54,335 nt of DNA from Bacteroidaceae bacterium (GTDB lineage: Bacteria > Bacteroidota > Bacteroidia > Bacteroidales > Bacteroidaceae): assembly GCA_017517605.1 (NCBI GenBank), contig JAFWYQ010000100.1, forward strand, positions 1 through 54,335. Direction: 5' to 3'. The position numbers were made by a program, and so were the translations under genes. Positions 1,232 through 47,576 of this stretch are shown one piece after another (the first letter of the stretch is position 1; every line of letters begins with the position of its first letter). The notes beneath the pieces were generated by a model. The model was not told the origin of the DNA, searched no databases, and saw only the letters and a list, made by a program, of their open reading frames with translations.

Positions 1232-1404
1232 ACTTCCACGTACCACTCAAGTCTTTACTTGGAGTACGCATAAGGGTAATTCAGATATGCCAAAGGGCAC
1301 TTCAGTATTGCTTAACAGAAACTTCAGTTTTGCTTAAGAAGTACTGAAGTACGACTTAAGATAAACTCCAGTACCACTTAAGATAAACTGGAGTATCCGT
1401 ATGG
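1232..1404. repeat. 22-bp-period tandem palindrome array 1
   Basis: About seven units at a strict 22-bp period; the clearest are 1299-1320, 1321-1342, 1343-1364, 1365-1386 and 1387-1404. Each has ACTTCAG/ACTGAAG/ACTCCAG at the left and CTTAAG-like sequence in the middle, with arms that complement within and between units (for example GTACTGAAGTAC). Units differ in sequence, but the spacing holds. The array lies between the EnvC-like gene and the permease gene. Confidence 0.8.
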
Positions 1405-1491
1405 TAAAATTTAGGAGATACTGATAAGAGCTTATTTTCAACGATTTATAAAGAAAAAAAATAAAAGTATAAACCATATAATAACAACAGA

Positions 1492-1537
1492 CTATCCACT
1501 CCCCTCCATACAGGGAGGGGCAAGGGGGAGGGTCCCT
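1492..1537. repeat. Dispersed hairpin family D
   Basis: ACTCCCCTCC, six bases, GGGAGGGG, then a G-rich tail ending GAGGGTC. Similar elements lie at 11893-11930 (inverted), 11960-11999, 45451-45493 and 54167-54206. This copy ends 13 bases before the permease start codon, so it would be folded next to the ribosome binding region. Confidence 0.75.
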
Positions 1538-1550
1538 AATTAAAAGAACT

Positions 1551-3893
1551 ATGATACGACATTACCTAATTCTCGCATGGCAGCAACTGGAAAAGTACCG
1601 CCTGCAATCATTGGTCAGCATCGTGGGATTGGGCATCGGCTTTGCTTGCTTTGCCTTGACGATGCTATGGATTCGTTACGAACGGACATTTGACACTCAA
1701 CACCCCGAGGCGGACAGACTCTATGTGGTGTATGAAAAACAGTATTTATACGTGCGTGAACCAGTGGCAGGCTATTTAGCCATGAATTTCCCTGAAGTGG
1801 CAGAAGCCTCTAACGTATCTCACAGACAAATGCCCCTCTTGATTGACGGGGTAGAGCAAAAAGTCTATTCAATTGAGGGGGATAGCAGTTTCTTGAATAT
1901 GACTGGATTACTTTTGGTGGCTGGCAATACCGACTTTTGGATGCATAGCGACCAAGTTGCCGTTACCGAAAAGTTTGCCACCAGAGTATGGGGCACGGAA
2001 AGCCCTATTGGAAAAAGCCTCAATACACCTTATGGTGGAGGTCTGACGGTGACGGCCGTGGTGAACGGTTACGACAAGCATAGTAATTTCCCGTTTGAGA
2101 TATTAAACGGGCTCGGACGCAATCCCAGTTGGAGCAATCTCAGTGGAGTGGCCCTCGTGCGTTTACATCCGAATGTGGATGCTAAAGCATTCATGACCAA
2201 AATCGATTCATTGGTAGTGAAAGTTCCCGAAAGACATGAAACTTGGGGGATAGCAAAGACCTATGATTACAATAATTTGCGTGCCGTCCCCTTGAGTGAA
2301 TTCCGGCAGGTGCTCAGCGATTCGGGACTGACCGAATCATTCAGTACATCTACAGAACTTATCCAATTCCGCCACATCCGTCTGGTGGGGTTGGCCGGTG
2401 CATTGATTATCCTGTCGGCTTTGCTGAACTACCTGACCATGTTTCTCAACCGCATCTTTATCCGCCAACGCGAGATGGTGTTGCGCTCGGTGTTCGGTGC
2501 CACCAAGCGCGACTTGATGACGATGCTTTTTACGGAGTACGTGCTTCTGTTGGTTATCTCTTTGGGAGTGGGATTGTTCTTTATGGAGGCTATGTTGCCT
2601 TGGTTCTTCGACCTCACCGGCATTACCTCTACGCGCCAATCCCTCTATGCCGAGGCAGGCATCTACTCAGGCATAGTGATGCTGTTGGGTTTCCTGTTAT
2701 CGGCCCCGGCCATCAACTACTTCCGCCGCAAGGCGGCGCAACACACCTTGCAGGGACGCGGTGCACAACATATCTACCAGAACTTTCGCAAGGTGAGTGT
2801 GGTGGTGCAACTCATCATCAGCATGGGCTTCACCTTCTGCACGGTGGTGATGATGCTCCAGTTGGAGAAGCTCCGCCACACCGACCCGGGTTTCCAACGC
2901 GAGAACATGGCGGTGCTCAGCTTCTATAACACAGACGACCGCCAAGCCTTTGCCCAACACCTGAACGAAATGCCCGAAGTGAGAGAGTGGCACGAGGGTT
3001 ATTCACTCTTCCCTAAATCGTCTATGCTTGGCTTCGGCATGCGACACAATGGAGAAGGGAACAGTACATGGGGTTATATAATATTGGGAGCCAAAGAGTA
3101 CCAACAGTTCTATAACCTACGACTGAAAGAAGGCCGTTGGTTAGAAGAGGGCGATGAGGGCGTGGCCGTAGTGACCGAAGCCGCCGTCAAGGCTATGGAA
3201 TTGGAGAATCCTATCGGTGAGTGGGTGGGATTAGACACCGACAACGGCTACACCATCATCGGCGTGGCAGAGGATATTTATCCAGGAGGACCAACAGATA
3301 AGGTCCAACCGTACCTCTTCTGCAGCGACGTGTTTGGAAACAACTACGACTACAATGATTACCTTATCAAATATCACCCGGGCACATGGTCAAGCCTTCG
3401 TCAAAAAGTGATTGACCTGATGGGCGATGTAGAGAAAACCAGAAGCCACCACTTAATCAATTGCGAAGAGGAGTTCGACAAGGTAATTCTCTCCGAACTG
3501 ACACTGCGCAAGCTGATGGCGAGTGTGTCGGTGGTGTGCATCCTCATCTCGCTCTTCGGCATCTGGTCGATGATTATGCTCAATTGCGAGCAACGCCGCA
3601 AGGAGATTGCTGTGCGCAAGGTATATGGTGCCACGGTGGGCGACATCCTGCGCCAGTTTGCCATCGAATATGGCCTATTGCTCGTCGTTTCCGTGGCCAT
3701 CGCCTTCCCTGTGGGTTACGTCTGCATGAAGCCGTGGGTGGAGCAGTTCAACTACCAGATAACCTTTGCCTGGTGGATTTATGCCTCCATCTTCGTGGGC
3801 GCCACCCTGCTCGTCGCCCTCTGTGTGGGCTGGCGTGTGTGGAAGACGGCCAAGACCCACCCTGCGGATGAAATAGCGAAAGGAAGAGGGTAA
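1551..3893 (+). CDS. MacB/FtsX-type ABC transporter permease, orphan
   Basis: A 780-residue inner-membrane protein with the Bacteroidetes double-FtsX layout: a first membrane helix at ~18-40, a large periplasmic MacB-type domain (~45-270), three helices (~277-385), a short link, a second helix (~418-440), another periplasmic domain (~445-640), then three closing helices (~652-765). The cytoplasmic motifs RQREMVLRSVFGA and RRKEIAVRKVYGA precede helices in both halves, the usual FtsX coupling segments. Such permeases work with an ATPase in mechanotransmission or efflux of peptides, lipids or lipoproteins, but no ATPase gene is adjacent, so the substrate and partner cannot be named. ATG start with A-rich leader. 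A hairpin terminator follows at 3946. Confidence 0.9.
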   Translation: MIRHYLILAWQQLEKYRLQSLVSIVGLGIGFACFALTMLWIRYERTFDTQHPEADRLYVVYEKQYLYVREPVAGYLAMNFPEVAEASNVSHRQMPLLIDGVEQKVYSIEGDSSFLNMTGLLLVAGNTDFWMHSDQVAVTEKFATRVWGTESPIGKSLNTPYGGGLTVTAVVNGYDKHSNFPFEILNGLGRNPSWSNLSGVALVRLHPNVDAKAFMTKIDSLVVKVPERHETWGIAKTYDYNNLRAVPLSEFRQVLSDSGLTESFSTSTELIQFRHIRLVGLAGALIILSALLNYLTMFLNRIFIRQREMVLRSVFGATKRDLMTMLFTEYVLLLVISLGVGLFFMEAMLPWFFDLTGITSTRQSLYAEAGIYSGIVMLLGFLLSAPAINYFRRKAAQHTLQGRGAQHIYQNFRKVSVVVQLIISMGFTFCTVVMMLQLEKLRHTDPGFQRENMAVLSFYNTDDRQAFAQHLNEMPEVREWHEGYSLFPKSSMLGFGMRHNGEGNSTWGYIILGAKEYQQFYNLRLKEGRWLEEGDEGVAVVTEAAVKAMELENPIGEWVGLDTDNGYTIIGVAEDIYPGGPTDKVQPYLFCSDVFGNNYDYNDYLIKYHPGTWSSLRQKVIDLMGDVEKTRSHHLINCEEEFDKVILSELTLRKLMASVSVVCILISLFGIWSMIMLNCEQRRKEIAVRKVYGATVGDILRQFAIEYGLLLVVSVAIAFPVGYVCMKPWVEQFNYQITFAWWIYASIFVGATLLVALCVGWRVWKTAKTHPADEIAKGRG

Positions 3894-3945
3894 AAGGAAA
3901 TAAATTGGTATCTAACGTGAGTTTGATATAAGGAGTGGAGTATTT

Positions 3946-3977
3946 AAACTCTCTCTCTAAGTTAGAGGGAGAGTTTT
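3946..3977. terminator. Bidirectional hairpin between convergent genes
   Basis: AAACTCTCTCTCTAA and its complement TTAGAGGGAGAGTTTT form a stem with a one-base loop, A-rich on one side and T-rich on the other. It lies between the permease (plus) and the Nudix gene (minus) and could end both transcripts. Confidence 0.75.
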
Positions 3978-4049
3978 AGTTACCACTGAAACGCAAAAAA
4001 CACCATACCATATTTGTGTACAAAGATTAGTAAGCTTCGGGGAGGAGTT

Positions 4050-4586
4050 TTAGTTGCTTTTCCATCTTCTTTCTTCAAGAAACCGTTGCAGGCCTTGGCG
4101 GACGGAGTTGAGACCGAAGAGGGTGGGATTGACCTCCGCGAGGGGAATCCATTGGCTGTCGGCCACATCGTCGAGGGCTTGCAAGGCCTTTTCGTCATCT
4201 TCGACCGTGCAGAGGAAGAATTGGTCGAGTGTGTGCACAAGGAAATCGGAATAGAGGTAGGTGTTGGGCAGGGAGAAAAGGTAGTGGGCATGGGTGACGG
4301 TAAGTCCCGTCTCCTCCAATACCTCGCGGCTGACACCCTCTTCGCCTGTCTCGTGCATGTCGATGAATCCGCCGGGAAGGTCAAGGGTGCCTTTGGCTGG
4401 TTCTTTGGCACGGCGGCACACAAGCAGTTCGTTGCGACCGTTCACTATCAGAGCCACGGTGGCCGCACTGGGGTTGAAGTAGTAGGTGAAACCGCATTGG
4501 ACACAACGCTTCGACTTCTCGTTGTTCTCCTCGAAATGGGCTGAGCCGCACACGGGGCAGTAGTGGAACTTATGTAAGGGATGCAA
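4050..4586 (-). CDS. Nudix hydrolase with N-terminal zinc ribbon
   Basis: 178 residues. A zinc ribbon (Cys10, Cys13, Cys28, Cys31) precedes a complete Nudix box at 73-95, G-x5-E-x7-REV-x-EE-x-G-L, the signature of enzymes that cleave nucleoside diphosphates linked to another group. Zinc-ribbon Nudix proteins include NADH pyrophosphatase relatives, but the NADH-specific motif is not evident, so the substrate is unknown. The only sensible start is TTG at 4586: there is no in-frame ATG before the zinc ribbon and a stop lies 15 bases upstream. It begins 19 bases after the helicase stop and is probably co-transcribed with it. Confidence 0.88.
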   Translation of the reverse strand: MHPLHKFHYCPVCGSAHFEENNEKSKRCVQCGFTYYFNPSAATVALIVNGRNELLVCRRAKEPAKGTLDLPGGFIDMHETGEEGVSREVLEETGLTVTHAHYLFSLPNTYLYSDFLVHTLDQFFLCTVEDDEKALQALDDVADSQWIPLAEVNPTLFGLNSVRQGLQRFLEERRWKSN

Positions 4587-4605
4587 TTTGAATAAAAATT
4601 AAAAG

Positions 4606-7170
4606 TTAACAATTAAAAGCCGCCATCACCATGCGGATTTCACCGTAGGTGATGTCATCGCCGAGGATGGCTTTGGCTGTACCCAAGTCGTGGGTGTGGC
4701 GAAGTATCTCGCGGATAAGGCGGGCTTTCTCTTCGGATACAAATTCGTGTAGAGGGAGCTGGCCTTGGGCAACGTAGTGCGCCAGATGACTTTCGATGGT
4801 GCTGCGTACAAATCCGCGTTGGGCTGCAATCTCGTCGATGCTCTTCCCTTCCTTATATAATAGGTAGGTCTGCTCTTTGGTATCTACCTTGGGCGGCTTG
4901 TTCTTTTCACGCTCTGCACGGCGTTCGGCTTTGGCCTGTTTTTCCAGTTCGGTACGGCTGATGGGGGTGGGGCGTTCGCCCAATTCGTGACCGTGCTTTT
5001 CGATGAAACGATGGATGACTGCCAGAATTTCTTCGCCATATTTGTCGGCACTGATTTTGCCGAAGTAAGGCGTGTCTATCAGCTGTGCCATGTTGTCGGG
5101 CAGGGAATTGGCCATGCAGATAAGTGCCTTTTGTTGCAGGATGGTGTAGGCGGGCAAGGTGAGTTCGCCACTCTTCTGTCGGCGCCACTCCTGAAGCGCT
5201 CGGTATAATTGCGGATAGCGGATGTCTGTGGGTACGCTTTCGGCTACGGAACCGGCGGAGCGCCCCTTCTTCTTCTCTTTTTTACCTGTTGTGGATTTAG
5301 GATTGAACAGTGTGTCGCTACCTTCGAGGGTAATCACCGCCTTGGCTTGCAGATAGGCTGATGCGCTAAAGTGGTTGTCAGCAAAATGCTTCATCAGCTC
5401 GCGCTTGAGGTAGAACGACTCGCGCAGGTTAAACAGTGCCTCGTCCATACGTTTACGAACCATCTGGTTGTCGGTCTCCACTTTGGTCTCAGTCAACAGG
5501 CTAAGCAACAGGTTATCCAATGTCTGGAGGAAATAGGTGGAGGCTTTGGTGATGCGCTCCTGTAGGTGGGCATTGTTGGCATAATCGGCCGACTGTTGCA
5601 TCAGCGCGGTATATTGTTGGCGGAACTTGTCGGCCACGTTGTTGAGTTGTTCCTTGAACAGTTGCTCCTTTTCCTTGTATTGTGCAAGTAGGGTAGGGTA
5701 AAGCCGGTAGAAATACTCGTCGAGCAAACGGACCACTTGGCCATAGTCGCGTTGCAGGGACTGGAAACTGAACAGTTCGTCCAACAGTTTGTAGAAGTAA
5801 TTGTATTGCAATTGGTTGAGTTGGCGTGTGGCCTCTTCAGTAAGGGTGGCGCCACTATGCATGAAGTCGGCCACCGCATCGTCGCTGATGATGGCCGTGG
5901 CGGTGACGGGCGAAGCCAGGACGAGTCCTTCCAACGTCTTGCATCGGCTAAGAGCCACATACACCTGTCCGTGTGCAAAGGAGGCGGCTGCATCGATAAC
6001 GGCCTTTTCGAAGGTCAGTCCCTGGCTTTTGTGTATGGTGATGGCCCAAGCCAACCGCAGGGGGTACTGGCGGAAGGTGCCCTCAATCTCTTCGCGAATC
6101 TCTTTGGTGGCTTCGTCCAATGTATAGCGGCTGTTGGCCCATTCGCTCGGTTCAACATTCAGCACTATGCCATCCTCGCAACGCACCGTAATGCTGCTGG
6201 CCGTTACCGATTCCACTTGGGCGATCTTACCATTGTAGTAACGGCCTTGTCCCGATTCGTCGTTGCGGATAAACATGACCTGTGCTCCCCGCTTCAGTTG
6301 CAGTGTGGCATCGGCAGGATAGAGCGCTTCGCTGAAGTTGCCCTTTACCTCGGCTTGGAAGGAATAGCTCTGCGACGGCAAAGCGGCCAGGCGGCTGTCG
6401 TTGTATTGCTGGGCAGTGTGATTGTGGGTGGTCAGGCGGATGTAGCCATCGGCATTCTCGGCCTTGAATCCCGGGATGTATCGTTCGTTCAGCTTGGCCA
6501 ATAGGGCAGCATCAATCTTGCGTTCGCGGATGGCATTCAGAATGTTGACAAACTCGCGGTCGGTCTGTCGGTAGATGGTCTTCAGCTCGATGGTGACGTA
6601 ACTGCTCTGTTGCAAGGCATGGCTGCCAAAGAAATAGAAGGTGGGGTAGTGGGCTGCCAGCAGGTGTATCTCGTTCTCCTTCACAACGGGCGAAAGCTGT
6701 TGCAAGTCGCCAATCATCAGCAGTTGCACTCCGCCAAAGGGACGCGTGTGGTCCTTGTATCGGCGCAATACTGAATCGATGGCATCCAACAGGTCGGCCC
6801 GCACCATACTGATTTCGTCGATAACCAACAGGTCGAGGCTACGCAGAATGTTCTTCTTCTCCTTGCTATAGGAGTATTGCCTGCGTCCGCTCTCGCTGAA
6901 CGACATGCCTGGAATATAGGGGGAAAGGGGCAACTGAAAGAATGAATGTATCGTCACACCTCCGGCATTGATGGCCGCCACACCTGTGGGGGCTACCACC
7001 ACCATCCGTTTGGGACTGTTGGTGCGCAAGTTCTTCAGGAATGTGGTCTTTCCTGTTCCTGCCTTGCCGGTGAGGAACACATTCGTGTCGGTCTGTTCAA
7101 TGAATTGCCGTGCCAATTCCAATTCACGGTTACTTTCAAGAGAGAGTGCAGGGGATACCGTTGTTGCCAT
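4606..7170 (-). CDS. PIF1-like DNA helicase with C-terminal helix-turn-helix
   Basis: About 854 residues. The N-terminal half is a superfamily-1B helicase: Walker A GKAGTGKT (residues 35-42), DEISM motif II, and a UvrD-like C-terminal motif AITIHKSQGLTFEKAVID with VALSRC. The C-terminal half has a basic linker, an HRDC-like helical domain and a helicase-type HTH (SIDEIAAQRGFVRSTIESHL). PIF1-family enzymes unwind 5'-3', resolving G-quadruplexes and stalled forks. The start at 7170 (MATTVS) is chosen because the promoter box at 7189-7196 lies inside the longer frame that opens at 7200. It is divergent from dinB across a 74-bp gap and followed closely by the Nudix gene. Confidence 0.92.
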   Translation of the reverse strand: MATTVSPALSLESNRELELARQFIEQTDTNVFLTGKAGTGKTTFLKNLRTNSPKRMVVVAPTGVAAINAGGVTIHSFFQLPLSPYIPGMSFSESGRRQYSYSKEKKNILRSLDLLVIDEISMVRADLLDAIDSVLRRYKDHTRPFGGVQLLMIGDLQQLSPVVKENEIHLLAAHYPTFYFFGSHALQQSSYVTIELKTIYRQTDREFVNILNAIRERKIDAALLAKLNERYIPGFKAENADGYIRLTTHNHTAQQYNDSRLAALPSQSYSFQAEVKGNFSEALYPADATLQLKRGAQVMFIRNDESGQGRYYNGKIAQVESVTASSITVRCEDGIVLNVEPSEWANSRYTLDEATKEIREEIEGTFRQYPLRLAWAITIHKSQGLTFEKAVIDAAASFAHGQVYVALSRCKTLEGLVLASPVTATAIISDDAVADFMHSGATLTEEATRQLNQLQYNYFYKLLDELFSFQSLQRDYGQVVRLLDEYFYRLYPTLLAQYKEKEQLFKEQLNNVADKFRQQYTALMQQSADYANNAHLQERITKASTYFLQTLDNLLLSLLTETKVETDNQMVRKRMDEALFNLRESFYLKRELMKHFADNHFSASAYLQAKAVITLEGSDTLFNPKSTTGKKEKKKGRSAGSVAESVPTDIRYPQLYRALQEWRRQKSGELTLPAYTILQQKALICMANSLPDNMAQLIDTPYFGKISADKYGEEILAVIHRFIEKHGHELGERPTPISRTELEKQAKAERRAEREKNKPPKVDTKEQTYLLYKEGKSIDEIAAQRGFVRSTIESHLAHYVAQGQLPLHEFVSEEKARLIREILRHTHDLGTAKAILGDDITYGEIRMVMAAFNC

Positions 7171-7188
7171 AAATGTAAAACTTTTGGG

Positions 7189-7219
7189 CAAAAGTAACAT
7201 ATATTCTTCAAAGTACCAA
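7189..7219 (-). promoter_or_regulatory. Helicase promoter
   Basis: On the minus strand TTG (7217-7219), 20 bases, then TACTTTTG (7189-7196). The predicted start of transcription is near 7183, which excludes the longer start codon at 7200. Confidence 0.75.
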
Positions 7220-7229
7220 CGATTATCGT

Positions 7230-7237
7230 TAACTTTG
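7230..7237 (+). promoter_or_regulatory. dinB -7 box, near-leaderless
   Basis: TAACTTTG matches TAnnTTTG. It ends eight bases before the dinB ATG, which would give a leader of roughly zero to five bases. No clear -33 element. Confidence 0.6.
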
Positions 7238-7244
7238 CATCGTA

Positions 7245-8339
7245 ATGCACGAACGGAAGATTATACATATAGATATGGATGCCTTCTATGCATCGGTAGA
7301 GCAACGCGACAATCCGGATTTGCGCGGCCGCCCCTTGGCTGTGGGACATGCCGGTGAACGGGGCGTAGTGGCTGCCGCCAGTTACGAAGCGCGACGGTAT
7401 GGTGTGCGTTCGGCCATGTCGTCGCTCAAGGCAATGCGTCTTTGCCCGGACTTGATATTTGTCCCTGGCCGTATGGAAGTGTATAAAGAGGTGTCCTATC
7501 AGATTCATGAGATTTTCCACGAATATACGGATGTAATTGAACCTTTGGCCTTGGATGAGGCTTTTCTGGATGTGACTGTAAACAAACCCGGTATATTGTT
7601 GGCTGTGGATATTGCCCGCGAAATCAAGCAGAGAATCCGTAAGGAGTTGGGATTGGTAGCTTCTGCAGGTGTTTCATACAACAAGTTTTTGGCTAAGATT
7701 GCATCAGATTACCGTAAGCCCAATGGATTGTGTACCATCCATCCTGATCAGGCATTGGACTTCATTGCCCGCCTGCCTATCGAGAGCTTTTGGGGAGTAG
7801 GCCCTGTTACTGCCAAGCGGATGCATGCGTTGGGGATTCACGACGGGCGGCACCTGCGTGCCTGGTCGTTGGAGGGGCTGGTGCGCGAGTTCGGCAAGGC
7901 GGGTCGGCTTTATTATGATTTCTCACGCGGCATTGACTTGCGCCCGGTAGAGACGGTGCGGGTGCGTAAGTCCATCGGGTGCGAACGAACCTTGGAACGC
8001 GACATAGACAGACGTTCCTCTATTGTTATCGAACTGTATCATACGGCGGTAGAGCTGATTGACCGCTTGAAAGCAAAGGACTTTAGAGGAAATACGTTGA
8101 CGCTGAAAGTAAAATTTCACGATTTTACACAAATAACGCGTAGTGTTACGCAGGAAAAGGAGTTGACAACAATGGATGTTATACTTCCATTGGCTAAAAA
8201 ACTGTTGGCAGATGTCTCTTATGAAGAGCGTCCCATCCGTTTGTTGGGTCTCTCAGTTTCCAATCCACGTGAGGATGATAAGGAGGTGTTGCCACATACC
8301 ACATGGGAACAATTGACTTTGCCTTTTGAGGAAGAGTAA
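7245..8339 (+). CDS. dinB: DNA polymerase IV (Y-family translesion polymerase)
   Basis: 364 residues. The palm motifs DMDAFYASVE (10-19) and LDEAFLDV supply the catalytic acidic residues; SAGVSYNKFLAKIASDYRKP is the fingers/palm signature. A helix-hairpin-helix (ESFWGVGPVTAKRMHALGI) and the little-finger domain follow. The final LPF is close to a beta-clamp-binding peptide (QLTLPF). Length is normal for the family. It copies past damaged bases at the cost of accuracy. It shares a 74-bp divergent promoter region with the helicase gene, so both may respond to the same replication stress (inference); no LexA-type operator was recognised. Confidence 0.96.
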   Translation: MHERKIIHIDMDAFYASVEQRDNPDLRGRPLAVGHAGERGVVAAASYEARRYGVRSAMSSLKAMRLCPDLIFVPGRMEVYKEVSYQIHEIFHEYTDVIEPLALDEAFLDVTVNKPGILLAVDIAREIKQRIRKELGLVASAGVSYNKFLAKIASDYRKPNGLCTIHPDQALDFIARLPIESFWGVGPVTAKRMHALGIHDGRHLRAWSLEGLVREFGKAGRLYYDFSRGIDLRPVETVRVRKSIGCERTLERDIDRRSSIVIELYHTAVELIDRLKAKDFRGNTLTLKVKFHDFTQITRSVTQEKELTTMDVILPLAKKLLADVSYEERPIRLLGLSVSNPREDDKEVLPHTTWEQLTLPFEEE

Positions 8340-13943: not shown

Positions 13944-14216
13944 TTACAATACAGCCTCTGCCAATTCTGCACCGGGCTTGAACTTTGCAACCTTCTTGGC
14001 TGCGATGGTGATAGTCTGCTTGGTAGCGGGATTAACACCAGTTCTTTCACCTCTTTCAGATACCATGAAAGTACCGAAACCTACGAGGGCAACTTTATCA
14101 CCCTGCTTCAAAGCTTCTGTGATAGAAGCAACTACGGCATCAATAGCCTTCTTTGAATCCACTTTGCTCAAGCCTGATTTCTCGGCTACGGCGCTGATAA
14201 GTTCTGCTTTGTTCAT
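13944..14216 (-). CDS. hup: HU-family DNA-binding protein
   Basis: 90 residues, the typical HU size. MNKAELISAVAEKSGLSK is the helical dimer core; GFGTFMVSERGERTGVNPAT contains the beta-arm signature with Arg-rich loop and the Asn-Pro tip that intercalates DNA. It bends and compacts DNA non-specifically. It has a perfect sigma-ABfr promoter and its own terminator, so it is monocistronic and probably strongly expressed. Confidence 0.96.
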   Translation of the reverse strand: MNKAELISAVAEKSGLSKVDSKKAIDAVVASITEALKQGDKVALVGFGTFMVSERGERTGVNPATKQTITIAAKKVAKFKPGAELAEAVL

Positions 14217-14402: not shown

Positions 14403-14512
14403 AACAGGGAATAATTCCCTTGTTTAAATACGTGAGCAAATACCCTACATTACCCTTGGGTTAAGCCTGCCTTAGCCTTGGGATAAGGTAACCTTAACCC
14501 AAGGGTGATGTC
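14403..14512. repeat. 22-bp-period tandem palindrome array 2
   Basis: Units at 14403-14424, 14425-14446, 14447-14468, 14469-14490 and 14491-14512, each 22 bp. The last three share TTACCCTTGGGTTAA-like cores (CCTTAGCCTTGGGATAAGG, CCTTAACCCAAGGGT); the first is its own palindrome (ACAGGGAATAATTCCCTTGT). It lies between the divergent HU and rhomboid promoters. Confidence 0.75.
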
Positions 14513-14587
14513 CGCCTTTTCGTGATATACGTTTATTCAAGTAATTTATGGAAATAAAGGGCGAATGTTTTGCCATCATGCATCCCT

Positions 14588-20737: not shown

Positions 20738-20762
20738 TTGAAATAAGAATACATTCTTTCCG

Positions 20763-20942
20763 GCTGAAGAATACTATTCTTTCGTACATAAGATTGGTAA
20801 TCTTCAAGCCTCAAGATACGGTTCTTCAAACTATAAGATACGTATCTTCAGAATCAGGGCATGGACTTTCAAAGTCAATGCATGGACTCTCAAAGTCACG
20901 GCGCTGACTTTCATAGTCAAGATGTTGTTCTTCGTGATTCAA
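20763..20942. repeat. 21/22-bp-period tandem palindrome array 3
   Basis: First block of 22-bp units (20786-20807, 20808-20829, 20830-20851) with cores AAGATTGGTAATCTT and AAGATACGTATCTT. After seven bases a second block of 21-bp units (20859-20879, 20880-20900, 20901-20921, 20922-20942) has cores GACTTTCAAAGTC, GACTCTCAAAGTC and GACTTTCATAGTC. It fills the space between the secDF terminator and the porin start; no TAnnTTTG box is seen. Confidence 0.85.
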
Positions 20943-22031: not shown

Positions 22032-22046
22032 GGAATTTCATTTTTG

Positions 22047-22280
22047 GAACACAGAGACACGGAGACTATTATTTAAAACACAGAGACACAAAGACACAGA
22101 GAAGATATATTTGTCACTGAAAAAGGGAAAAACTCTGTGTTTCTGTGCCTCTGTGTTCTAAATAATTTGTTTCGCTGAATAGTTACGTTTAAGGCTCAAG
22201 GTCTAAGATTTTGTTAAAAACGACCGCATGGTTTTAAACTATGAATTTAATCTCTGTGCCTTAGTGCCTCTGTGTTCTAA
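22047..22280. repeat. Dispersed repeat family B (CACAGAGACACAGAG)
   Basis: Words CACAGAG/GACACAGAG at 22047-22066 and 22075-22102 face complementary CTCTGTGTTTCTGTG words at 22131-22167, and a third copy lies at 22251-22280. The element is flanked by TTCTAAATAATTTGTTTCG, as also seen at 27115-27240. It occupies the gap between the porin and gyrB. Confidence 0.8.
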
Positions 22281-24468: not shown

Positions 24469-24503
24469 CTATAAAAAAATGAAATGTCAATTTGTGATAA
24501 ATT

Positions 24504-24592
24504 ATCAGTGGACTTCACTGTTCTATACAATTAACTCCGTTCGCGAACCGAGTTAACACGATAGGCGAACGGAGTTAATTGTGTAGGGGGAT
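24504..24592. repeat. 22-bp-period tandem palindrome array 4
   Basis: Units at 24527-24548, 24549-24570 and 24571-24592, all 22 bp, with TTAACTCCGTTCGCGAAC and its partners CGAGTTAA and GCGAACGGAGTTAATTG. A weaker leading unit (CAGTGGACTTCACTG) precedes. It lies between the gyrB promoter and the 3' end of the TlpA-like gene. Confidence 0.7.
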
Positions 24593-24608
24593 ACGCAATA
24601 CAGCTTCT

Positions 24609-27114: not shown

Positions 27115-27240
27115 CATCGAAATGAATTATTTATTTAGAACACAGAGGCACAGAGACACAGAGTTTTTTCTTTTTGTAGTGCCAAATAGGCCATCTCTGT
27201 GTCTCCGTGTCTCTGTGTTCTAAATAATTTATTTCGATGA
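27115..27240. terminator. Long family B hairpin after the xylanase gene
   Basis: Arms of about 45 bases (27115-27163 and 27194-27240): TTTAGAACACAGAGGCAC and its complement, extended by TCATCGAAAT outside. It follows the xylanase stop (27244) directly and probably ends its transcript. The element is a copy of the one at 22047-22167, including its flanks. Confidence 0.8.
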
Positions 27241-31122: not shown

Positions 31123-31294
31123 TTTTATAATCAGTTGATAAGTAATCTATTGCATTTACATCTGCGTTACATTGTTATGTAAATCTGTTTACCACGTCTG
31201 GTAAATGGGTTTACTGTGTGTGGTAAGTGGGTTTACCACGCGTGGTAAATGTATTTACTACGCATGGTAAATGTGCTTACAACGCGTAGTAAAA
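31119..31294. repeat. 22-bp-period tandem palindrome array 5
   Basis: Clear 22-bp units at 31163-31184, 31185-31206, 31207-31228, 31229-31250, 31251-31272 and 31273-31294. The core is TTTACCACGCGTGGTAAA with variants TTACTGTGTGTGGTAA, TTTACTACGCATGGTAAA and TTACATTGTTATGTAA; substitutions are often compensated so the palindrome survives. Weaker units continue left into the recO stop (CTGATTTTATAATCAG). It sits between recO and the tnaA promoter. Confidence 0.9.
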
Positions 31295-31357
31295 CATCCT
31301 TCTCTTCAATTGCTGACAATTTTATCTGCTTTCGTTCGGTTTTCCAATATTAAGTTG

Positions 31358-38701: not shown

Positions 38702-38733
38702 TTTGCTCACGTCGTAGAAAACCTCTACCTTTG
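38702..38733 (+). promoter_or_regulatory. tRNA-Val promoter
   Basis: TTTG (38702-38705), 20 bases, TACCTTTG (38726-38733); full consensus, 31 bases before the tRNA. Confidence 0.88.
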
Positions 38734-38764
38734 CATCGCTTTTGAAAAGAAAGGGCACTCCTTC

Positions 38765-38839
38765 GGGCGTTTAGCTCAGCTGGTTCAGAGCATCTGCCTT
38801 ACAAGCAGAGGGTCGGCGGTTCGAATCCGTCAACGCCCA
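38765..38839 (+). tRNA. tRNA-Val (anticodon UAC)
   Basis: 75 nt. Acceptor GGGCGTT/AACGCCC and A discriminator; anticodon arm TCTGC-CTTACAA-GCAGA with TAC; T-loop GTTCGAATC. CCA is not encoded. A hairpin with seven T follows. Confidence 0.96.
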
Positions 38840-38847
38840 CACTAAGC

Positions 38848-38880
38848 AAAGCACTGCATGTTGAATGTGGTGCTTTTTTT
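38848..38880 (+). terminator. tRNA-Val terminator
   Basis: AAAGCACTGCAT and ATGTGGTGCTTT form the stem; a T-run follows. Confidence 0.78.
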
Positions 38881-38928
38881 GTATCACGTATAAGTTTTGA
38901 CAATTATTCATAATACAAGTATAAGACA

Positions 38929-40290
38929 ATGGCTGCAAAACCTGGTATTCCAAAGGGAACACGCGACTTCTCGCCTGTAGAGATGGCGAAGCGCAATTAT
39001 ATATTTGATACCATTCGTGAGGTGTATGCTCTCTATGGTTTTCAACAGATTGAGACCCCCGCTATGGAGAACCTCTCCACATTGATGGGTAAGTATGGCG
39101 AAGAGGGTGACAAATTACTCTTCAAAATTCAGAACTCTGGCGATTACTTCAAAGGGTTGACTGATGAGGAACTGCTTGGACGCAATGCCGCCAAGTTGGC
39201 CTCCAAGTTTTGTGAAAAGGGACTTCGTTACGACCTTACCGTGCCTTTTGCCCGCTATGTGGTGATGCACCGTGAGGAGTTGGCTTTGCCTTTCAAGCGT
39301 TATCAGATTCAGCCGGTATGGCGTGCTGACCGTCCGCAGAAAGGACGTTATCGCGAGTTCTATCAGTGCGATGCCGACATGGTAGGTAGCGATTCATTAC
39401 TCAACGAGGTAGAGCTGATGCAGATTGTAGATACCGTGTTTACCCGTTTTGGTATCCGTGTATGCATTAAGATAAACAATCGTAAAATCTTGAGCGGTAT
39501 TGCCGAAATCATTGGTGAGGCCGACAAGATTGTGGATATTACTGTGGCCATCGACAAGTTGGACAAGATTGGTCTTGACAACGCGAATGCCGAACTCGCT
39601 TCCAAGGGTATCAGTCAGGAGGCTATCGACAAACTCCAACCCATCATTCTGCTTAGCGGAACCAATGCCGAGAAGTTGGCTACATTGAAAGAGGTGCTTG
39701 CCACCAGCGAAGTGGGTTTGAAGGGTGTGGAAGAGAGTGAATTTATCCTCAATACATTGCAAGCACTTGGCTTGAAGAACGAAGTGGAGCTTGACCTCAC
39801 ATTGGCTCGTGGATTGAACTACTATACCGGTGCCATCTTTGAGGTAAAGGCTCTTGATGTACAGATTGGTAGCATCACTGGTGGTGGCCGTTATGATAAC
39901 TTGACAGGCATCTTTGGTATGCCTGGCATCTCTGGTGTAGGTATCTCGTTTGGCGCCGACCGTATCTTTGATGTGCTCAACCAACTCGACCTTTATCCTA
40001 AAGAGGCCGTTACGGGCACCCGTGTACTCTTCGTTAACTTCGGTGATGCAGAAATGGCATATAGCCTTCCCTTGCTTGCCCGTTTGCGTGGTGCTGGCAT
40101 CTCTGCTGAAATTTATCCTGATAGTGCCAAGATGAAGAAACAGATGGCATACGCCAATGCCAAGGCTGTTCCCTTTGTGGCGATTGTTGGTGAAAACGAA
40201 ATGGCCGAAGGCAAAGTGATGCTGAAGAATATGACCACTGGCGAACAGCGTCTGCTCACAGGTGAAGAGTTGGTGGGAGCCTTGCAATAA
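38929..40290 (+). CDS. hisS: Histidyl-tRNA synthetase
   Basis: 453 residues. Class II core with motif 1 region ([20 protein letters not shown]), motif 2 ([20 protein letters not shown]), the HisA motif [15 protein letters not shown] and GGGRYDNL, motif 3 ([15 protein letters not shown]), then a C-terminal anticodon-binding domain. It charges tRNA-His. It follows tRNA-Val by 89 bases and a terminator, without a clear promoter box of its own. Confidence 0.97.
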
Positions 40291-40327
40291 TCCTTGGGGA
40301 TTCCCCCTTTGGTATAAATAGAACAAG

Positions 40328-40476
40328 AATGCCAATCTTACCCACGTAAGATTGGCATTCTTTCGATGGTGGCATTGGCATTCTTCTCCGTTCATGTCGC
40401 TTCTAATCTTTACTGCCAATAGCGTGGCAGTCCTCTGCCAGTACGTTGGCAGTACACTGCCATCACTGAGGCAGTA
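40328..40476. repeat. 22-bp-period tandem palindrome array 6
   Basis: Starts with a long palindrome (AATGCCAATCTTACC and its complement, 40328-40359) that may terminate hisS. Clear 22-bp units follow at 40411-40432, 40433-40454 and 40455-40476 with cores ACTGCCAATAGCGTGGCAGT, CTGCCAGTACGTTGGCAG and ACTGCCATCACTGAGGCAGT. The middle (40360-40410) is more diverged. It lies between hisS and the cusB promoter; the rest of the 325-base gap has no other feature. Confidence 0.85.
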
Positions 40477-40581
40477 ACTCTCAATTAAGCCCTTTATCTT
40501 CTTCCTTTACTTTCTCTTCCTCTTGCATAAGCACTTTGTAATATATAGGGCTTTTGCAACTCAGTTGTAAAAGTATATCAC

Positions 40582-40589
40582 TATCTTTG
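40582..40589 (+). promoter_or_regulatory. Metal efflux operon -7 box
   Basis: TATCTTTG, 27 bases before the adaptor gene start; no well-spaced -33. Confidence 0.6.
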
Positions 40590-40615
40590 CGCGATTTTAA
40601 GAAAACGTATAGAAT

Positions 40616-41902
40616 ATGAGATATATTACTGGATTAATCAGTGCTTGTAGTATGGCACTTTGTATGATGACGGCTTGTGGTGGACATCATCACGATGAGC
40701 ATGACCACGAAGGGCATAAGGATGATAATCATGTGATTCATGCAGGGCATGACCATGATTCACATAACGGCCATGAGCATGATGCTGTTCATAATCACGA
40801 ATCACATCATCATGCTGAGGGGGTACATGATGGACACGTACACTCTTCGTCAAACGGACATGCCCACGAAGGTCATGCCGGTGAGATAATCATTGTTCCC
40901 GACCAGGCGAAGGCGGCGGGTATCGTGTCCGAAGTGCTCGCTCCGAAAAGTTTCCGTCAGGTGATACCCGTGAGTGGAGAGATTCTTCCTGCTCAGGGAG
41001 AACAACAGACGGTGGTGGCCAATGTGGCCGGTGTAGTGACGTTTGCCCGAACACTGACCGAGGGTATCGAGGTTGGGAAGGGTTCAACCTTACTGACCGT
41101 TTCATCGCAAAATATGGCCGATGGCAATCCTGCTGAACGGGCGCGTATTGCTTACGAAGCAGCCAAGCAAGAGTATGAGCGTGCGTCCAAGTTGGTGGAT
41201 GACAAGATTGTGTCGGAGAAGGAGTTTATCCGCATCAAGGAGGCTTACGAGAATGCCCGTCTGACCTACGAAGCGCTGAAAGCCGACCGTCCAATGAAGG
41301 GTGGGGTAGGTGTGACAGCTCCCATCAGCGGCTACTTGAAGAACTGTCTGGTAAAAGAGGGCGACTACGTAAGTGTGGGACAACCTTTGTTGACTATAAC
41401 AAAGAATAACCGCCTCTACTTGCGTGCCGATGTACCTGAACAACATTATGCAGCACTCAGCCGTATCCGTTCGGCTAACTTTCGTACCTCTTATAGCAAT
41501 AAAGTTAATGCAGTGGACGAGTTGAATGGTCGTCTGCTCTCATATGGACGTACGGCGGGTGAACAGAGTTTCTATCTGCCCGTAACCTTCGCGATGGACA
41601 ACAGGGAGGGGCTTGTACCCGGCTCGTTCGCTGAGATATGGCTCTTGTCCGATGAGATGCCCGATGTGCTGACTGTGCCCCATACGGCACTGACGGAGGA
41701 GCAGGGCATCTATTTTGTCTATGTACAGTTGGACGAAGAGTGCTATGTCCGTCGGGAAGTGAAGTTGGGAGCTGACAACGGTCGTGAGGTGCAATTGCTC
41801 AGTGGTGTACATGCCGGTGAACGGATTGTGATGCAAGGTGCTTACCATGTGCGCTTGGCATCGGTGAGCAAGGCGATACCGGGACATAGCCATGAACATT
41901 AG
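40616..41902 (+). CDS. cusB: Metal efflux RND periplasmic adaptor lipoprotein, His-rich
   Basis: 428 residues. Lipoprotein signal with lipobox Cys21 (MMTAC). Residues ~24-88 are dominated by His, Asp and Gly (HDHEGH, HDHDSHNGHEHD), a likely Zn/Cu/Co/Ni-binding sponge, and the C-terminus ends HSHEH. The membrane-fusion core follows: barrel-sandwich hybrid, helical hairpin (ARIAYEAAKQEYERASKLVDDKIV) and beta-barrel. It would hand metal to the RND pump and bridge it to the outer-membrane channel. The stop codon TAG is formed by the first bases of a family A repeat. Confidence 0.9.
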   Translation: MRYITGLISACSMALCMMTACGGHHHDEHDHEGHKDDNHVIHAGHDHDSHNGHEHDAVHNHESHHHAEGVHDGHVHSSSNGHAHEGHAGEIIIVPDQAKAAGIVSEVLAPKSFRQVIPVSGEILPAQGEQQTVVANVAGVVTFARTLTEGIEVGKGSTLLTVSSQNMADGNPAERARIAYEAAKQEYERASKLVDDKIVSEKEFIRIKEAYENARLTYEALKADRPMKGGVGVTAPISGYLKNCLVKEGDYVSVGQPLLTITKNNRLYLRADVPEQHYAALSRIRSANFRTSYSNKVNAVDELNGRLLSYGRTAGEQSFYLPVTFAMDNREGLVPGSFAEIWLLSDEMPDVLTVPHTALTEEQGIYFVYVQLDEECYVRREVKLGADNGREVQLLSGVHAGERIVMQGAYHVRLASVSKAIPGHSHEH

Positions 41903-42033
41903 TTGACAAGGTTTTAGTTGACAAGTTGACAAGATACAAGTTGACAAGGCCATCCGGCACTATACCCTCGTCAACTCGTCAACTTGTATTATAACCCTTG
42001 TCAACTCGTCAACTTGTTAACTCGTTAACTCAT
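41900..42033. repeat. Dispersed repeat family A, intercistronic copy
   Basis: Iterated AGTTGACAAG words (41901-41949), a central AGGCCATCCGGCA (41947-41959), then iterated CTCGTCAACT and CTTGTCAACT words (to 42030): a large inverted repeat. The centre and both arms match the in-frame copy in cusA (43308-43394). It ends six bases before the cusA ATG, so it forms the whole cusB-cusA spacer. Confidence 0.88.
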
Positions 42034-42038
42034 ATATT

Positions 42039-45000
42039 ATGCTGAACAGAATCATACATTTCTCACTCCATAACCGTCTGTTGGTACTGGTGGCCAGTAT
42101 CCTTGTGATGATAGGCGGACTCTACACGACATACCACACCGAGGTGGATGTCTTCCCTGACTTGAATGCCCCCACCGTGGTTGTGATGACCGAGGCTAAC
42201 GGTATGGCGGCCGAAGAGGTGGAGCAATTGGTGACATTCCCCATCGAGACGGCGGTCAACGGAGCGACGTATGTCCGCCGCGTGCGTTCGTCATCGACCA
42301 ACAGCTTCTCCATCGTGTGGGTGGAGTTCGACTGGGGTACCGACATCTATTTGGCACGACAGATTGTGTCGGAGAAACTTTCGCTCGTTGCGGAGAAGTT
42401 GCCCGACAATGTCAATAAACCTACGTTAGGACCTCAATCGTCCATCTTGGGCGAGTTGATGATTATCGGCTTGACGGCAGACAGTACCTCGATGCTTGAC
42501 CTGCGCACGTTGGCTGATTGGACTATTCGTCCGCGCCTTCTTTCCACTGGTGGTGTGGCACAGGTGGCCGTGTTGGGTGGTGATGTCAAGGAGTATCAGA
42601 TATTGATTGACCCTGCCCGTATGCGACACTATGGTGTGACCATTGATGATGTGCTGGCCGCCACACGGGGAATGAACGTGAATACCAACGGTGGTGTGAT
42701 GTACGAGCATAGCAACGAATATATTGTGCGCGGTATGGTGGCCACGACCGATGTGGACGAGATAGCCAAGGCTGTAGTCAAGCGTATGGGTACGGTGCCC
42801 GTCACGTTGGCCGATGTGGCCGATGTGCGTATCGGTGCTCAAGAGCCTAAGATTGGTTGTGCATCGGTGGAGGGCAAGCCTGCGGTGCTGATTACCGTCA
42901 CCAAACAGCCCCACACGGGAACGTTGGAGTTGACCGAACGCATAGACCGCTCGTTGGAGGAGATGAAGAAGACCTTCCCTGCTGATGTGCAGGTGAATTC
43001 TGACATATTCCGTCAATCACGCTTCATAGACAGTAGTATCGGTAATGTGAAGAACTCGTTACTTGAGGGAGCCATATTTGTAGTTATCATCCTTGCCCTC
43101 TTCTTGGCTAATGTACGCACTACGGTGATTTCGCTTGTCACGTTGCCGTTGGCCTTGGTATTCTCTGTCCTTGCACTCCACTTCATGGGATTGACTATCA
43201 ACACCATGAGCTTGGGAGGTATGGCGATAGCTATCGGGTCGTTAGTGGACGATGCCATTGTGGATGTGGAGAATGTGTGGAAGAGGCTGAGGAACCCCTC
43301 TTCAGCCTTAGTTGACAAGGTACAAGTTGACAAGTTGACAAGGCCATGCGGTACAGAAGCCTCGTCAACTCGTCAACTCGTCAACTCGTCAACTATAAAC
43401 ATTATCTATGAGGCCAGCCGCGAGGTGCGTATGCCAATATTGAACTCTACCTTGATTATCATAGTGAGTTTCGTTCCCCTGTTCTTCCTGACAGGTATGG
43501 AGGGTCGTATGCTGGTGCCGTTGGGCATTGCCTTTATAGTGGCATTGGCTGCTTCTACATTGGTGGCCTTGACGTTGACTCCTGTACTGTGCAGCTACCT
43601 GTTGGGCGGTAATCATGACAAGGAGGAGACCATGCGCGAGGCACGTTTGAGTATCTGGCTGAAGCGCTATTACCGTGTTGCGTTGGAGTGGGCGCTTCGT
43701 CACGAGCGGGGTGTGTTGGCCTGTGTCGTCGCCCTTTTTGTCGGAACATTGGTTGTGTTCTTCACGTTGGGGCGCAGCTTTCTGCCATCGTTCAACGAGG
43801 GGTCGTTCACTATCAATGTCAGCTCGTTGCCGGGCATATCCTTGGAGGAGAGTGACCGCATAGGCCGTCGTGCTGAGGAGTTGTTGCTTACTGTACCTGA
43901 GATTGAGACCGTGGCTCGTAAGACCGGCCGTGCGGAGTTGGATGAGCATGCCTTGGGGGTGAATACGTCGGAGATTGAGGCACCCTTCACGTTGGCGGAG
44001 AGGTCGCGCCGCGAGGTGATGGCCGAGGTACGCGCTAAGTTGGGTACACTCGTAGGGGCGAATATCGAGATAGGCCAGCCCATCAGTCACCGTATCGATG
44101 CCATGCTGAGTGGTACACGGGCGGGCATTGCCATCAAACTGTTCGGTACCGACCTCAACCGTATGTATGCCTTGGGTAACGAGATAAAGGAGGCGATTGC
44201 TGATGTGGAGGGCATTGCTGACCTCAACGTGGAGCAGCAGATTGAGCGCCCGGAACTGAAGATTGTACCTCGCCGTGAGATGTTGGCCCGCTATGGTGTG
44301 ACCCTGCCCGAGTTTGCCGAGTTTGTCAGCGTGAACATGGGCGGAGAGGTGGTGTCGCAAGTCTATGAAGAAGGCAAGAGTTTCGACCTCGTGGTGCGTA
44401 CGTCCGGCGACCGCCGCGACCGTATGGAGGATGTCCGCTCGCTGATGATTGACACACCCGACGGGCGCATCCCCCTGAGCTATGTGGCCGAGGTGCAGAG
44501 TGTTATGGGACCGAACAGCATCAGCCGCGAGAATGTGCGCCGCAAGCTCGTCATCAGCGCGAACACCAGCGGGCGCGACCTTCGTGGGGTGGTGGAGGAC
44601 ATACAGGACAGGGTGGCCTCGCACATCACGTTGCCCGAAGGGTACCACATCGAGTACGGCGGTCAGTTCGAGAGCGAGCAGGCTGCTTCCAACACCCTCT
44701 TGTTGGCCTCGCTCTTCAGCATCATAGGCATCTTCCTGCTGATATATATGGAGTTCAAGAGTGCCCGCGAAAGTGCCGTCATCCTGATTAACCTGCCCCT
44801 GGCGCTCATCGGTGGCGTAGTGGCGCTGTGGATAACCTCGGGCGAGGTGAGCATCCCGGCCATCATCGGATTCATCTCCCTCTTCGGCATTGCCACACGT
44901 AACGGTATGCTACTTATTTCGGGGTATAACCGTCTGAGAACCGAGGGCTTGAGTCTGCACGACAGCATTATCCACGGTTCGCTCGACCGATTGAACCCCA

Positions 45001-45185
45001 TCCTTATGACCGCCCTCTCGTCAGCCCTCGCCATGATACCGCTGGCCCTGCACGGCGACCTGCCGGGCAACGAGATACAAAGCCCCATGGCCAAGGTCAT
45101 CCTTGGTGGCCTCTTGACATCCACCCTGTTGAACGGTTTCGTCATCCCGATTGTTTATAGGATGATGCACAGGGACAAGGGGTGA
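42039..45185 (+). CDS. cusA: Heavy-metal RND efflux pump
   Basis: 1048 residues. TM1 region, VDVFPDLNAPTVVVMTEANG, two periplasmic halves and the proton-relay helix GSLVDDAIVDVENV (~403-416) identify the CusA/CzcA (HME-RND) family; PILNSTLIIIVSFVPLFFL and ISLFGIATRNGMLLISG are the matching TM signatures. It exports metal ions by proton antiport together with the adaptor and TolC proteins. Oddity: residues 425-452, in the cytoplasmic loop after TM4, are encoded by an in-frame family A repeat (43311-43394). The 3' half is richer in C and G than the 5' half. Metal specificity cannot be read. Confidence 0.93.
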   Translation: MLNRIIHFSLHNRLLVLVASILVMIGGLYTTYHTEVDVFPDLNAPTVVVMTEANGMAAEEVEQLVTFPIETAVNGATYVRRVRSSSTNSFSIVWVEFDWGTDIYLARQIVSEKLSLVAEKLPDNVNKPTLGPQSSILGELMIIGLTADSTSMLDLRTLADWTIRPRLLSTGGVAQVAVLGGDVKEYQILIDPARMRHYGVTIDDVLAATRGMNVNTNGGVMYEHSNEYIVRGMVATTDVDEIAKAVVKRMGTVPVTLADVADVRIGAQEPKIGCASVEGKPAVLITVTKQPHTGTLELTERIDRSLEEMKKTFPADVQVNSDIFRQSRFIDSSIGNVKNSLLEGAIFVVIILALFLANVRTTVISLVTLPLALVFSVLALHFMGLTINTMSLGGMAIAIGSLVDDAIVDVENVWKRLRNPSSALVDKVQVDKLTRPCGTEASSTRQLVNSSTINIIYEASREVRMPILNSTLIIIVSFVPLFFLTGMEGRMLVPLGIAFIVALAASTLVALTLTPVLCSYLLGGNHDKEETMREARLSIWLKRYYRVALEWALRHERGVLACVVALFVGTLVVFFTLGRSFLPSFNEGSFTINVSSLPGISLEESDRIGRRAEELLLTVPEIETVARKTGRAELDEHALGVNTSEIEAPFTLAERSRREVMAEVRAKLGTLVGANIEIGQPISHRIDAMLSGTRAGIAIKLFGTDLNRMYALGNEIKEAIADVEGIADLNVEQQIERPELKIVPRREMLARYGVTLPEFAEFVSVNMGGEVVSQVYEEGKSFDLVVRTSGDRRDRMEDVRSLMIDTPDGRIPLSYVAEVQSVMGPNSISRENVRRKLVISANTSGRDLRGVVEDIQDRVASHITLPEGYHIEYGGQFESEQAASNTLLLASLFSIIGIFLLIYMEFKSARESAVILINLPLALIGGVVALWITSGEVSIPAIIGFISLFGIATRNGMLLISGYNRLRTEGLSLHDSIIHGSLDRLNPILMTALSSALAMIPLALHGDLPGNEIQSPMAKVILGGLLTSTLLNGFVIPIVYRMMHRDKG
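43308..43394. repeat. Family A repeat inside cusA, in frame
   Basis: TTAGTTGACAAGG, further GTTGACAAG words, the shared centre AAGGCCATGCGGTACA, then four CTCGTCAACT-type words. 84 bases (43311-43394) equal 28 codons with no stop in this frame, giving a Val/Asp/Lys/Thr/Ser-rich segment absent from the conserved pump sequence around it. Confidence 0.88.
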
Positions 45186-45285
45186 GCGAGGATGTGAAAT
45201 GTATAAAATAATTACCGACAACGGTAGCCATAGCATCCATTTCTTGGCATCTCTCCTGAAACCCGCATGAACAGAGTGTTCCAGA

Positions 45286-45378
45286 GAATGTCAGTGAGTC
45301 GTCGTCAAGAGTAACCGTGACCCATGCTCACGACTTACGGTAAGTTATGGTCGTGACCTACGGTAACTCGCCGAAGCG
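45286..45378. repeat. ~22-bp-period array 7 between cusA and the TolC-like gene
   Basis: Units at 45311-45332, 45333-45355 and 45356-45378 (22 to 23 bp) share TTACGGTAAG/CTACGGTAAC and CGTGAC/GTCGTGA words; weaker related sequence precedes. The rest of this 236-base gap shows no promoter box. Confidence 0.6.
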
Positions 45379-47575: not shown

Positions 47576-47576
47576 C

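Follow-up and report, generated by a model that had tools for sequence, protein, structure and literature searches.

How can a repeat keep its period when its sequence changes from locus to locus? The question is raised by a stretch of 54,335 nucleotides from a Bacteroidaceae bacterium (contig JAFWYQ010000100.1 of assembly GCA_017517605.1; the whole stretch is called the window below), in which a sequence-only reading had described seven intergenic arrays of short palindromic units, repeated every 21-22 bp and with a core sequence private to each locus. Here we report that arrays with a period of 21-23 bp occur genome-wide and family-wide, and that many of their units belong to recurrent, clade-specific half-site "dialects" which have one 22-bp grid in common. 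In a related genome, homologous elements carry arrays of unrelated sequence that follow this same grid.

A 22-bp period within and beyond the window

Autocorrelation along the 54 kb, computed in 88-bp windows (z >= 4.5), returned six regions at lag 22, at 1250-1437, 14412-14535, 20765-20874, 24490-24600, 31135-31337 and 40389-40512, each of which is intergenic and coincides with one of the arrays described before. The seventh array region (45268-45404) rings at lag 23, and the signal of array 3 is divided among lags 21, 22 and 23, so that a period of 21-23 bp is seen at all seven. No region was found in the window at lags 17, 19, 20, 25 and 26; other lags also yield regions at this threshold, partly in coding sequence (e.g. 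seven each at lags 12, 21 and 33). The core sequences quoted in the sequence-only reading are present in the window, and the observation of seven arrays with a period of about 22 bp is confirmed. Their units differ, which rules out one mobile repeat copied to all seven sites, as had been claimed.

The period is not confined to this stretch. We surveyed gaps of at least 150 bp for their strongest lag within 15-44 (z >= 6; loci shorter than 3 kb dropped; one shuffle per gap). In a 333-kb sample of the genome of the window (G000), lags 21-23 were strongest in 21 of 125 gaps and the other 27 lags together in 8; the corresponding figures were 31 of 260 gaps and 4 for other genomes of the genus, 7 of 89 and 2 for other genera of the family, and 10 of 161 and 8 for named Bacteroidaceae and Prevotellaceae. 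Other families of the order gave 7 of 112 gaps (one of them at lag 22), with 8 at other lags, named Tannerella, Dysgonomonas, Paludibacter and Parabacteroides types 1 of 45 (other lags 2), and other named Bacteroidales 0 of 53 (other lags 3). Beyond the order we counted 1 of 61 gaps in other orders of the class (other lags 1), 1 of 54 in other classes (other lags 0) and 2 of 194 in named Flavobacteriia, Cytophagia and others (other lags 4). Shuffled gaps gave no signal at lags 21-23 in any group except for a single one in the order group, which rules out chance and low complexity as the source of the arrays; the genome-wide excess over shuffled gaps thus holds in this genome and its relatives. 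Named relatives of the window genome by gyrB include Bacteroides sp. An322 (86%) and Phocaeicola vulgatus (83%), and arrays at z >= 5.5 occur, among other named genomes, in P. vulgatus ATCC 8482, where one lies at L097:8070, in Mediterranea massiliensis and in Parabacteroides distasonis, the palindromy of the last not going beyond its periodicity. Within the genus (the window and the sequences L036-L075, L093-L095 and L181-L200), 75 gaps reached z >= 6, of which 58 had their maximum at lags 21-23, 47 of these at lag 22 itself.

Half-sites, linkers and clade-specific dialects

The units follow one layout, in which a half-site, a linker, the inverted half-site and a second linker add up to 22 bp, with dyads about 11 bp apart. 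Palindromy was judged against copies whose unit columns had been permuted (p <= 0.05), and 40 of the 58 genus arrays at lags 21-23 exceeded these controls, which bears out the palindromic units first described. Five of the 11 testable arrays at other lags were also more palindromic than their controls; six of the 75, with periods outside 12-40, were not tested.

Many units recur as dialects. CTGCCA-N6-TGGCAG-N4, the type of array 6, is present in seven of 15 genus genomes: searched as adjacent pairs with at most two mismatches, it gave 19 matches at nine loci in G000, 18 in G002, 11 each in G007 and G014, 10 in G012, 9 in G006 and 2 in G005, and none in the eight other genus genomes. Two further dialects mark the genome G009, in which AAACAATATTGTTT has 118 sites (one each in G011 and G001, none in 12 others) and AAGTATNATACTT forms 113 pairs (none in 14 others). 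Reversed controls were zero for all of these searches. The half-sites of G009 may bear some likeness to parS. A GTAGCCG pair at 22 bp occurs 18 times in G003 and 0-2 times elsewhere; this case is weaker than the others because its reversed controls reach 3 in one genome.

The CTGCCA dialect was read at 22 loci with 73 units (63 distinct), collected by a half-site search that tolerated up to two mismatches; loci with eroded half-sites are therefore missing. Eleven of the 12 half-site positions are identical in 63-73 of the 73 units and the twelfth in 56; the six-base core and the four-base spacer are variable. All but one of the loci hold three or four units (range 2-4), several with an extra 19-bp unit. 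Among three pairs of homologous loci, changes affect 6 of 132 half-site positions, 24 of 98 linker positions and 412 of 1432 flank positions. These counts go part of the way towards showing that half-sites would be retained while linkers vary.

Hairpins can be drawn from such units, and the sequence-only reading had proposed chains of RNA hairpins, which would act in leaders or 3' untranslated regions. In keeping with this, co-directional genes flank 30 of 47 arrays (30 of 216 tandem and 11 of 68 convergent gaps hold an array). However, arrays also occur in divergent gaps (6 of 72; array 2 was counted as tandem in this tally because the crude gene caller misses genes below 100 amino acids), and array 3 stands behind what by eye resembles a terminator hairpin. 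Arm mismatches in sense orientation comprise 40 G:T against 45 A:C (p=0.66) in 20 palindromic arrays from tandem gaps, taken from 47 rows after dropping those from G009 and those that were non-tandem or weakly palindromic; with counts this similar, the arms show no G:U bias and hence no RNA signature. Rfam matched only two tRNAs in the window at gathering scores and nothing at E <= 1 in six G009 loci, and a known structured RNA was rejected on these grounds. RNA hairpin chains are thus disfavoured, and we regard them as very improbable.

One element frame, two arrays

The AAACAA palindromes of G009 sit within an element of about 570 bp, of which 45 copies, each collected by one exact palindrome, were aligned. 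Identity is 95% in the palindrome columns (94% when one exact unit per copy is dropped), 63% in the spacers, 64% in the remaining element and 43% outside it. A search that is independent of the palindromes used the two ends of the element alone against the G009 stretches L056-L075, L190 and L306-L325. Six of the 14 matches carry another 22-bp array in the middle of the element, of the CGTACGGAC / GTCCGTACG type and without AAACAA palindromes (L057, L059 twice, L060, L061 and L063; z 5.5-8.1 at lag 22, palindrome p <= 0.05 in five of the six). Both ends were matched in four of these copies, 529 bp apart in three and 532 bp in the fourth; copies with the AAACAA array mostly span about 540-600 bp by a looser measure. 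The match at L058 is partial and has no array, and that at L066 is cut by the stretch. Homologous elements of similar length in G009 thus bear arrays that are unrelated in sequence and yet follow one grid. Spacing outlasts sequence here, which is the paradox of the sequence-only reading in its purest form.

Over 44 copies of the AAACAA element, a truncated one having been set aside, identity is unrelated to distance (Mantel r 0.016, p 0.69), which speaks against recent local hopping. In some copies of the frame (about 530-570 bp; L201-L240, L056-L064) the right end can by eye be folded into a long hairpin, GAATCGCCTGAGAAGGCCCTT...AAGGCCCTTCTCAGGCGATTC. A 171-bp repeat in G000, with 93% identity between L048:2125 and L052:9540, overlaps a 22-bp array.

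The arrays might belong to non-autonomous mobile repeats of the BrickBuilt or miniature inverted-repeat transposable element (MITE) type, whose palindromes would be transposase-binding or hairpin sites used for movement, with no function for the host, and whose degenerate arrays would be relics. Dispersed copies within one genome, the two array types in one G009 frame, mirror-image flanks seen by eye in some copies of the AAGTAT dialect and the clade-specificity of the arrays all point this way, and BrickBuilt provides a precedent in Porphyromonas gingivalis (PMC4596501). On the other side, a Y1 (RAYT-type) transposase was not detected in ten of the 15 genus genomes, G009 included, in a search covering this transposase family alone, and terminal inverted repeats and target duplications have not been demonstrated, no systematic search for them having been made. 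Moreover, arrays are retained at some orthologous gaps, and IMG/VR held no exact match to the two dialect patterns tried, a result on which phage carriage was rejected as well. Mobility without host function is a serious possibility, if a doubtful one.

Proposed phased platforms for DNA-binding proteins

The explanation that we tentatively prefer, while giving it somewhat less than an even chance, is that each array is a platform of several phased sites for dimeric DNA-binding proteins, and that these platforms were dispersed in the form of miniature repeats. It starts from the observed period, dyad symmetry, dialects, dispersal and clade limits, from the differing arrays in a shared G009 frame and from the lack of an RNA wobble signature. 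Alternating half-sites, variable linkers and a step of about two helical turns together have the look of operator arrays for a dimeric protein, and dispersal and shared frames suggest that such platforms spread by copying. In each lineage the half-sites would be recognized by a sequence-specific dimeric protein, whose neighbouring dimers would be placed by the 22-bp step on nearly one face of the DNA, where they may co-operate. The sequence-only reading had put all palindromes on one face, which is an approximation: with the helix taken as 10.5 bp per turn, 22 bp would overshoot two turns by 1 bp per unit. Each dialect would spread to many intergenic places as a small dispersed repeat, and arrays would then be retained or lost locus by locus. 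One dialect would give way to another from clade to clade, and even from one copy of an element to the next, on a grid that does not change. Binding might affect transcription or nucleoid structure.

Several results weigh against such platforms. No binding protein was identified, and in 18 of the 58 arrays palindromy does not go beyond periodicity. The conservation of CTGCCA and AAACAA half-sites is partly built in, because the copies were collected by matching half-sites; in the search by element ends, only six of the 14 matches carry AAACAA palindromes. Between species, arrays 3, 4 and 7 changed at 42 of 202 half-site, 83 of 342 linker and 169 of 881 flank positions; half-sites thus change at about the rate of the flanks and are under no apparent constraint. 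No compensatory change could be made out in these arrays, in which complementary pairs account for nine of the 17 double changes when each direction is counted. Shared units could be explained by copying alone, and selection may act on the binding that serves the host or on the movement of the element.

Unconstrained arrays of this kind would also be expected if they were neutral minisatellites, in which hairpin-prone 22-bp units expand by slippage and replication geometry sets the period. An extra 22-bp unit in G005 at the trx-gyrB gap agrees with this, as do runs of 17 and 7 consecutive near-identical AAGTATAATACTT units in G009 (C1:1443816-1444180 and 589538-589682), which are evidence of recent tandem growth. 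The templated local duplication considered in the sequence-only reading therefore does occur, as the G005 unit and the 17-unit run illustrate, but it leaves unexplained why half-sites are constant while linkers vary. Slippage also fits poorly with the same period in unrelated sequences, even within one element frame, with linkers that differ between neighbouring units of CTGCCA loci when the half-sites do not, with the small number of units (2-4 per CTGCCA locus, mostly 3-4 per locus in the G009 dialects) and with the rarity of arrays outside the order. We consider neutral expansion unlikely.

The seven arrays and their orthologous gaps

Relatives of the window arrays were sought in 384 gaps; one of seven reversed controls gave one match (E 7e-3). 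Judged by their units, array 6 is a clear dialect member, and arrays 2 and 4 belong to smaller families. Array 6 (40412-40478), in the hisS-hlyD gap, has the CTGCCA-N6-TGGCAG-N4 unit of the clade-wide dialect, and its sisters in G000 are L038 and seven further loci. The range first given for it was too wide, since 40328-40390 is by eye an off-grid inverted repeat; this separate long repeat, AAGAATGCCAATCTTAC...GTAAGATTGGCATTCTT, lies at 40326-40363. Array 2 (14403-14512; CCTTAACCCAAGG type, z 6.1 at lag 22) occupies the divergent gap between an HU gene (13944-14216, minus strand, HU by Pfam) and a plus-strand rhomboid operon. Its sister arrays are those at L040 and L048 of G000 together with two in gaps of G014. 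Array 4 (24504-24592; GAGTTAAC / GCGAACG type, z 5.5 at lag 22), in the trx-gyrB gap, has sisters in G000 at L039 and L040. For these three the idea of a locus-private sequence has to be given up.

The remaining arrays are orthologous, weakly related or so far unique. Array 1 (1232-1404; CTTAAG / ACTTCAGT type, period about 22 bp, z 9.2 at lag 22, palindrome p 0.069), between the plus-strand M23 peptidase and FtsX genes, has no relative among the 384 gaps. Array 3 (20746-20921; period 21-23), in the secDF-porin gap behind the apparent secDF terminator, runs through the unit series AAGAAT..ATTCTT, AAGATACGTATCTT and GACTTTCAAAGTC and has orthologs, with weaker matches at L047, L048 and L050. 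Array 5 (31140-31297; TTTACC-ACGCGT-GGTAAA-N4, z 10.1 at lag 22, palindrome p 0.01), between recO and the gene of a beta-eliminating lyase, presumably occupies an upstream-promoter position; only weak matches to it were found in the 384 gaps, and the next-best match on another G000 contig has an E of 0.127, the region having no copy in G000. Array 7 (45286-45378; period about 23 bp, z 6.5 at lag 23, palindrome p 0.01), in the acrB-OEP gap, overlaps the start that was assigned mechanically to the OEP open reading frame and has one ortholog. Neighbouring genes are co-directional at six of the seven arrays; the divergent gap of array 2 is the exception.

Between species, arrays are present at some orthologous gaps and absent from others. 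The secDF-porin gap holds one in five of five genomes read, and the trx-gyrB gap in G000 (z 5.5), G005 (z 9.0) and G012 (z 5.0). In the recO-lyase gap there is an array in G000 only, a weak and different signal in G005 and none in G007. The HU-rhomboid array is found in G000 and G014 and not in G006, the acrB-OEP array in G000 and G014 (z 9.4) and not in G012, and the hisS-hlyD array in G000 and not in G012. The recO-gyrB gap carries arrays of differing sequence in G008 and G011 and none in G010, G001, G014 and G006.

The window also contains shorter repeats. The hlyD-acrB gap (41900-42031) holds an 8-bp hairpin-forming repeat, AGTTGACA / GTCAACTC, and a very similar one stands in frame within the acrB open reading frame (43308-43396), as though a dispersed repeat had landed in the gene and become part of its protein. 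Tandem repeats of 7-8 bp at 22040-22110, 27140-27220 and 47473-47576 represent another dispersed intergenic class, which is common to other G000 gaps as well; the latter two consist of inverted pairs (ACACAGAG/TCTCTGTG and AGTTATG/ACTCACA).

Possible dialect territories in G009

The positions of dialects were mapped in one nearly closed genome, G009, to 2.96 Mb. Among the matches listed, triple units form 30 AAACAA and 36 AAGTAT loci (8 of 65 AAGTAT triple matches are not listed), and between 1.87 and 2.84 Mb there is one AAACAA locus against 20 AAGTAT loci (Fisher 3e-6, for an interval picked after inspection of the data). Under permutation of the labels, the number of runs (24, with 33.7 expected) has p 0.01, and an interval scan gave p 0.003 (300 permutations). 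With looser loci (one exact AAACAA site or one AAGTAT pair), 3 of 37 and 20 of 40 fall in the chosen interval (Fisher 5e-5 for that interval); the runs test is weaker here (p 0.25; 36 observed, 39.5 expected). The interval is centred on a switch of GC skew near 2.35 Mb. Skew switches at about 0.5 and 2.35 Mb (20 samples) disagree with dnaA at 2.947 Mb, and gene-strand bias is no help, so that the switch at 2.35 Mb cannot be called terminus or origin. Between 0.54 and 0.91 Mb there is no AAACAA array among the matches listed, and the alternative array occurs at L059 (twice) and L060; the cases are few.

Dialect territories in G009 are thus suggestive only. One could extend the binding platforms to a fast-evolving positional code, in which each Bacteroidaceae genome has a few half-site dialects on the fixed 22-bp grid, carried in shared mobile frames and marking different megabase territories. 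Proteins specific to each dialect would then shape the nucleoid in a way particular to each territory and would co-evolve with their sites. We think it improbable that this is how the arrays work.

Comparison with known systems

For the Bacteroidaceae, which are abundant gut bacteria, a sequence-independent 22-bp grid occupied by half-sites specific to each clade would amount to a general feature of the DNA between genes. The arrays offer concrete baits for DNA-binding proteins, and homologous elements with differing arrays make it testable whether grid or sequence matters. If they are only mobile relics, a widespread class of miniature repeats would still have been named. In titles and the opening lines of abstracts, we found no description of such a grid in other Bacteroidales beyond BrickBuilt, and none of macrodomain marks in Bacteroides.

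The closest known element is the BrickBuilt MITE of P. gingivalis, with 23-nt bricks in 19 copies (up to 22.8 direct repeats), an intergenic position, predicted stem loops, a leader, a tail and IS5-like ends; it is known in P. gingivalis and P. gulae, and 22-, 23- and 41-nt repeats are mentioned for P. gingivalis strain W83 (PMC4596501). Like BrickBuilt, the arrays are dispersed intergenic tandem repeats of about the same length in a Bacteroidales genome. Unlike BrickBuilt as described there, which is one 23-nt family, they comprise several dialects per genome, mostly of 22 bp (some of 23), a distinction drawn from the published description. They are also family-wide and, in the dialects read, usually have 2-4 units, with alternating half-sites and variable linkers. 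Flanks of the 22 CTGCCA loci are not shared, save for homologous loci and short stretches, and the G009 arrays sit in a larger element with conserved ends. Tandem units of 23 bp that recur almost unchanged elsewhere in the same genome, seen at L036 and L040 in G000 and at L254 in G054 (GTATATCTC...GCACTTGCA; TCACAATCTTGTCAATTTTTATC), are the closest look-alikes of BrickBuilt in this analysis.

REP families are species-specific, with several per genome. With REP, BIME and REPIN sequences (PMC3733652, PMC2817692), the arrays have in common that they are short, dispersed extragenic palindromes, but they differ in their fixed 22-bp tandem grid. The Y1 transposase domain PF01797 was found in five of 15 genus genomes, among them G000. 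The two gaps beside the RAYT gene at L283 in G000, the one locus examined out of five, peak at lag 35 (z 5.0) and at lag 22 (z 4.1) and so fall short of the threshold; in view of this and of the Y1 search in G009, identity with RAYT/REP was rejected. A GTAG start was noticed by eye only in the G003 dialect.

The MatP/matS system of the Escherichia coli Ter macrodomain, in which a 13-bp target occurs 23 times in an 800-kb domain (PMC3330122), may be compared with the G009 dialect AAGTATNATACTT, which is 13 bp long and has 20 loci within a 0.97-Mb interval. Unlike matS as outlined there, the dialect forms tandem arrays and has many loci outside the interval as well.

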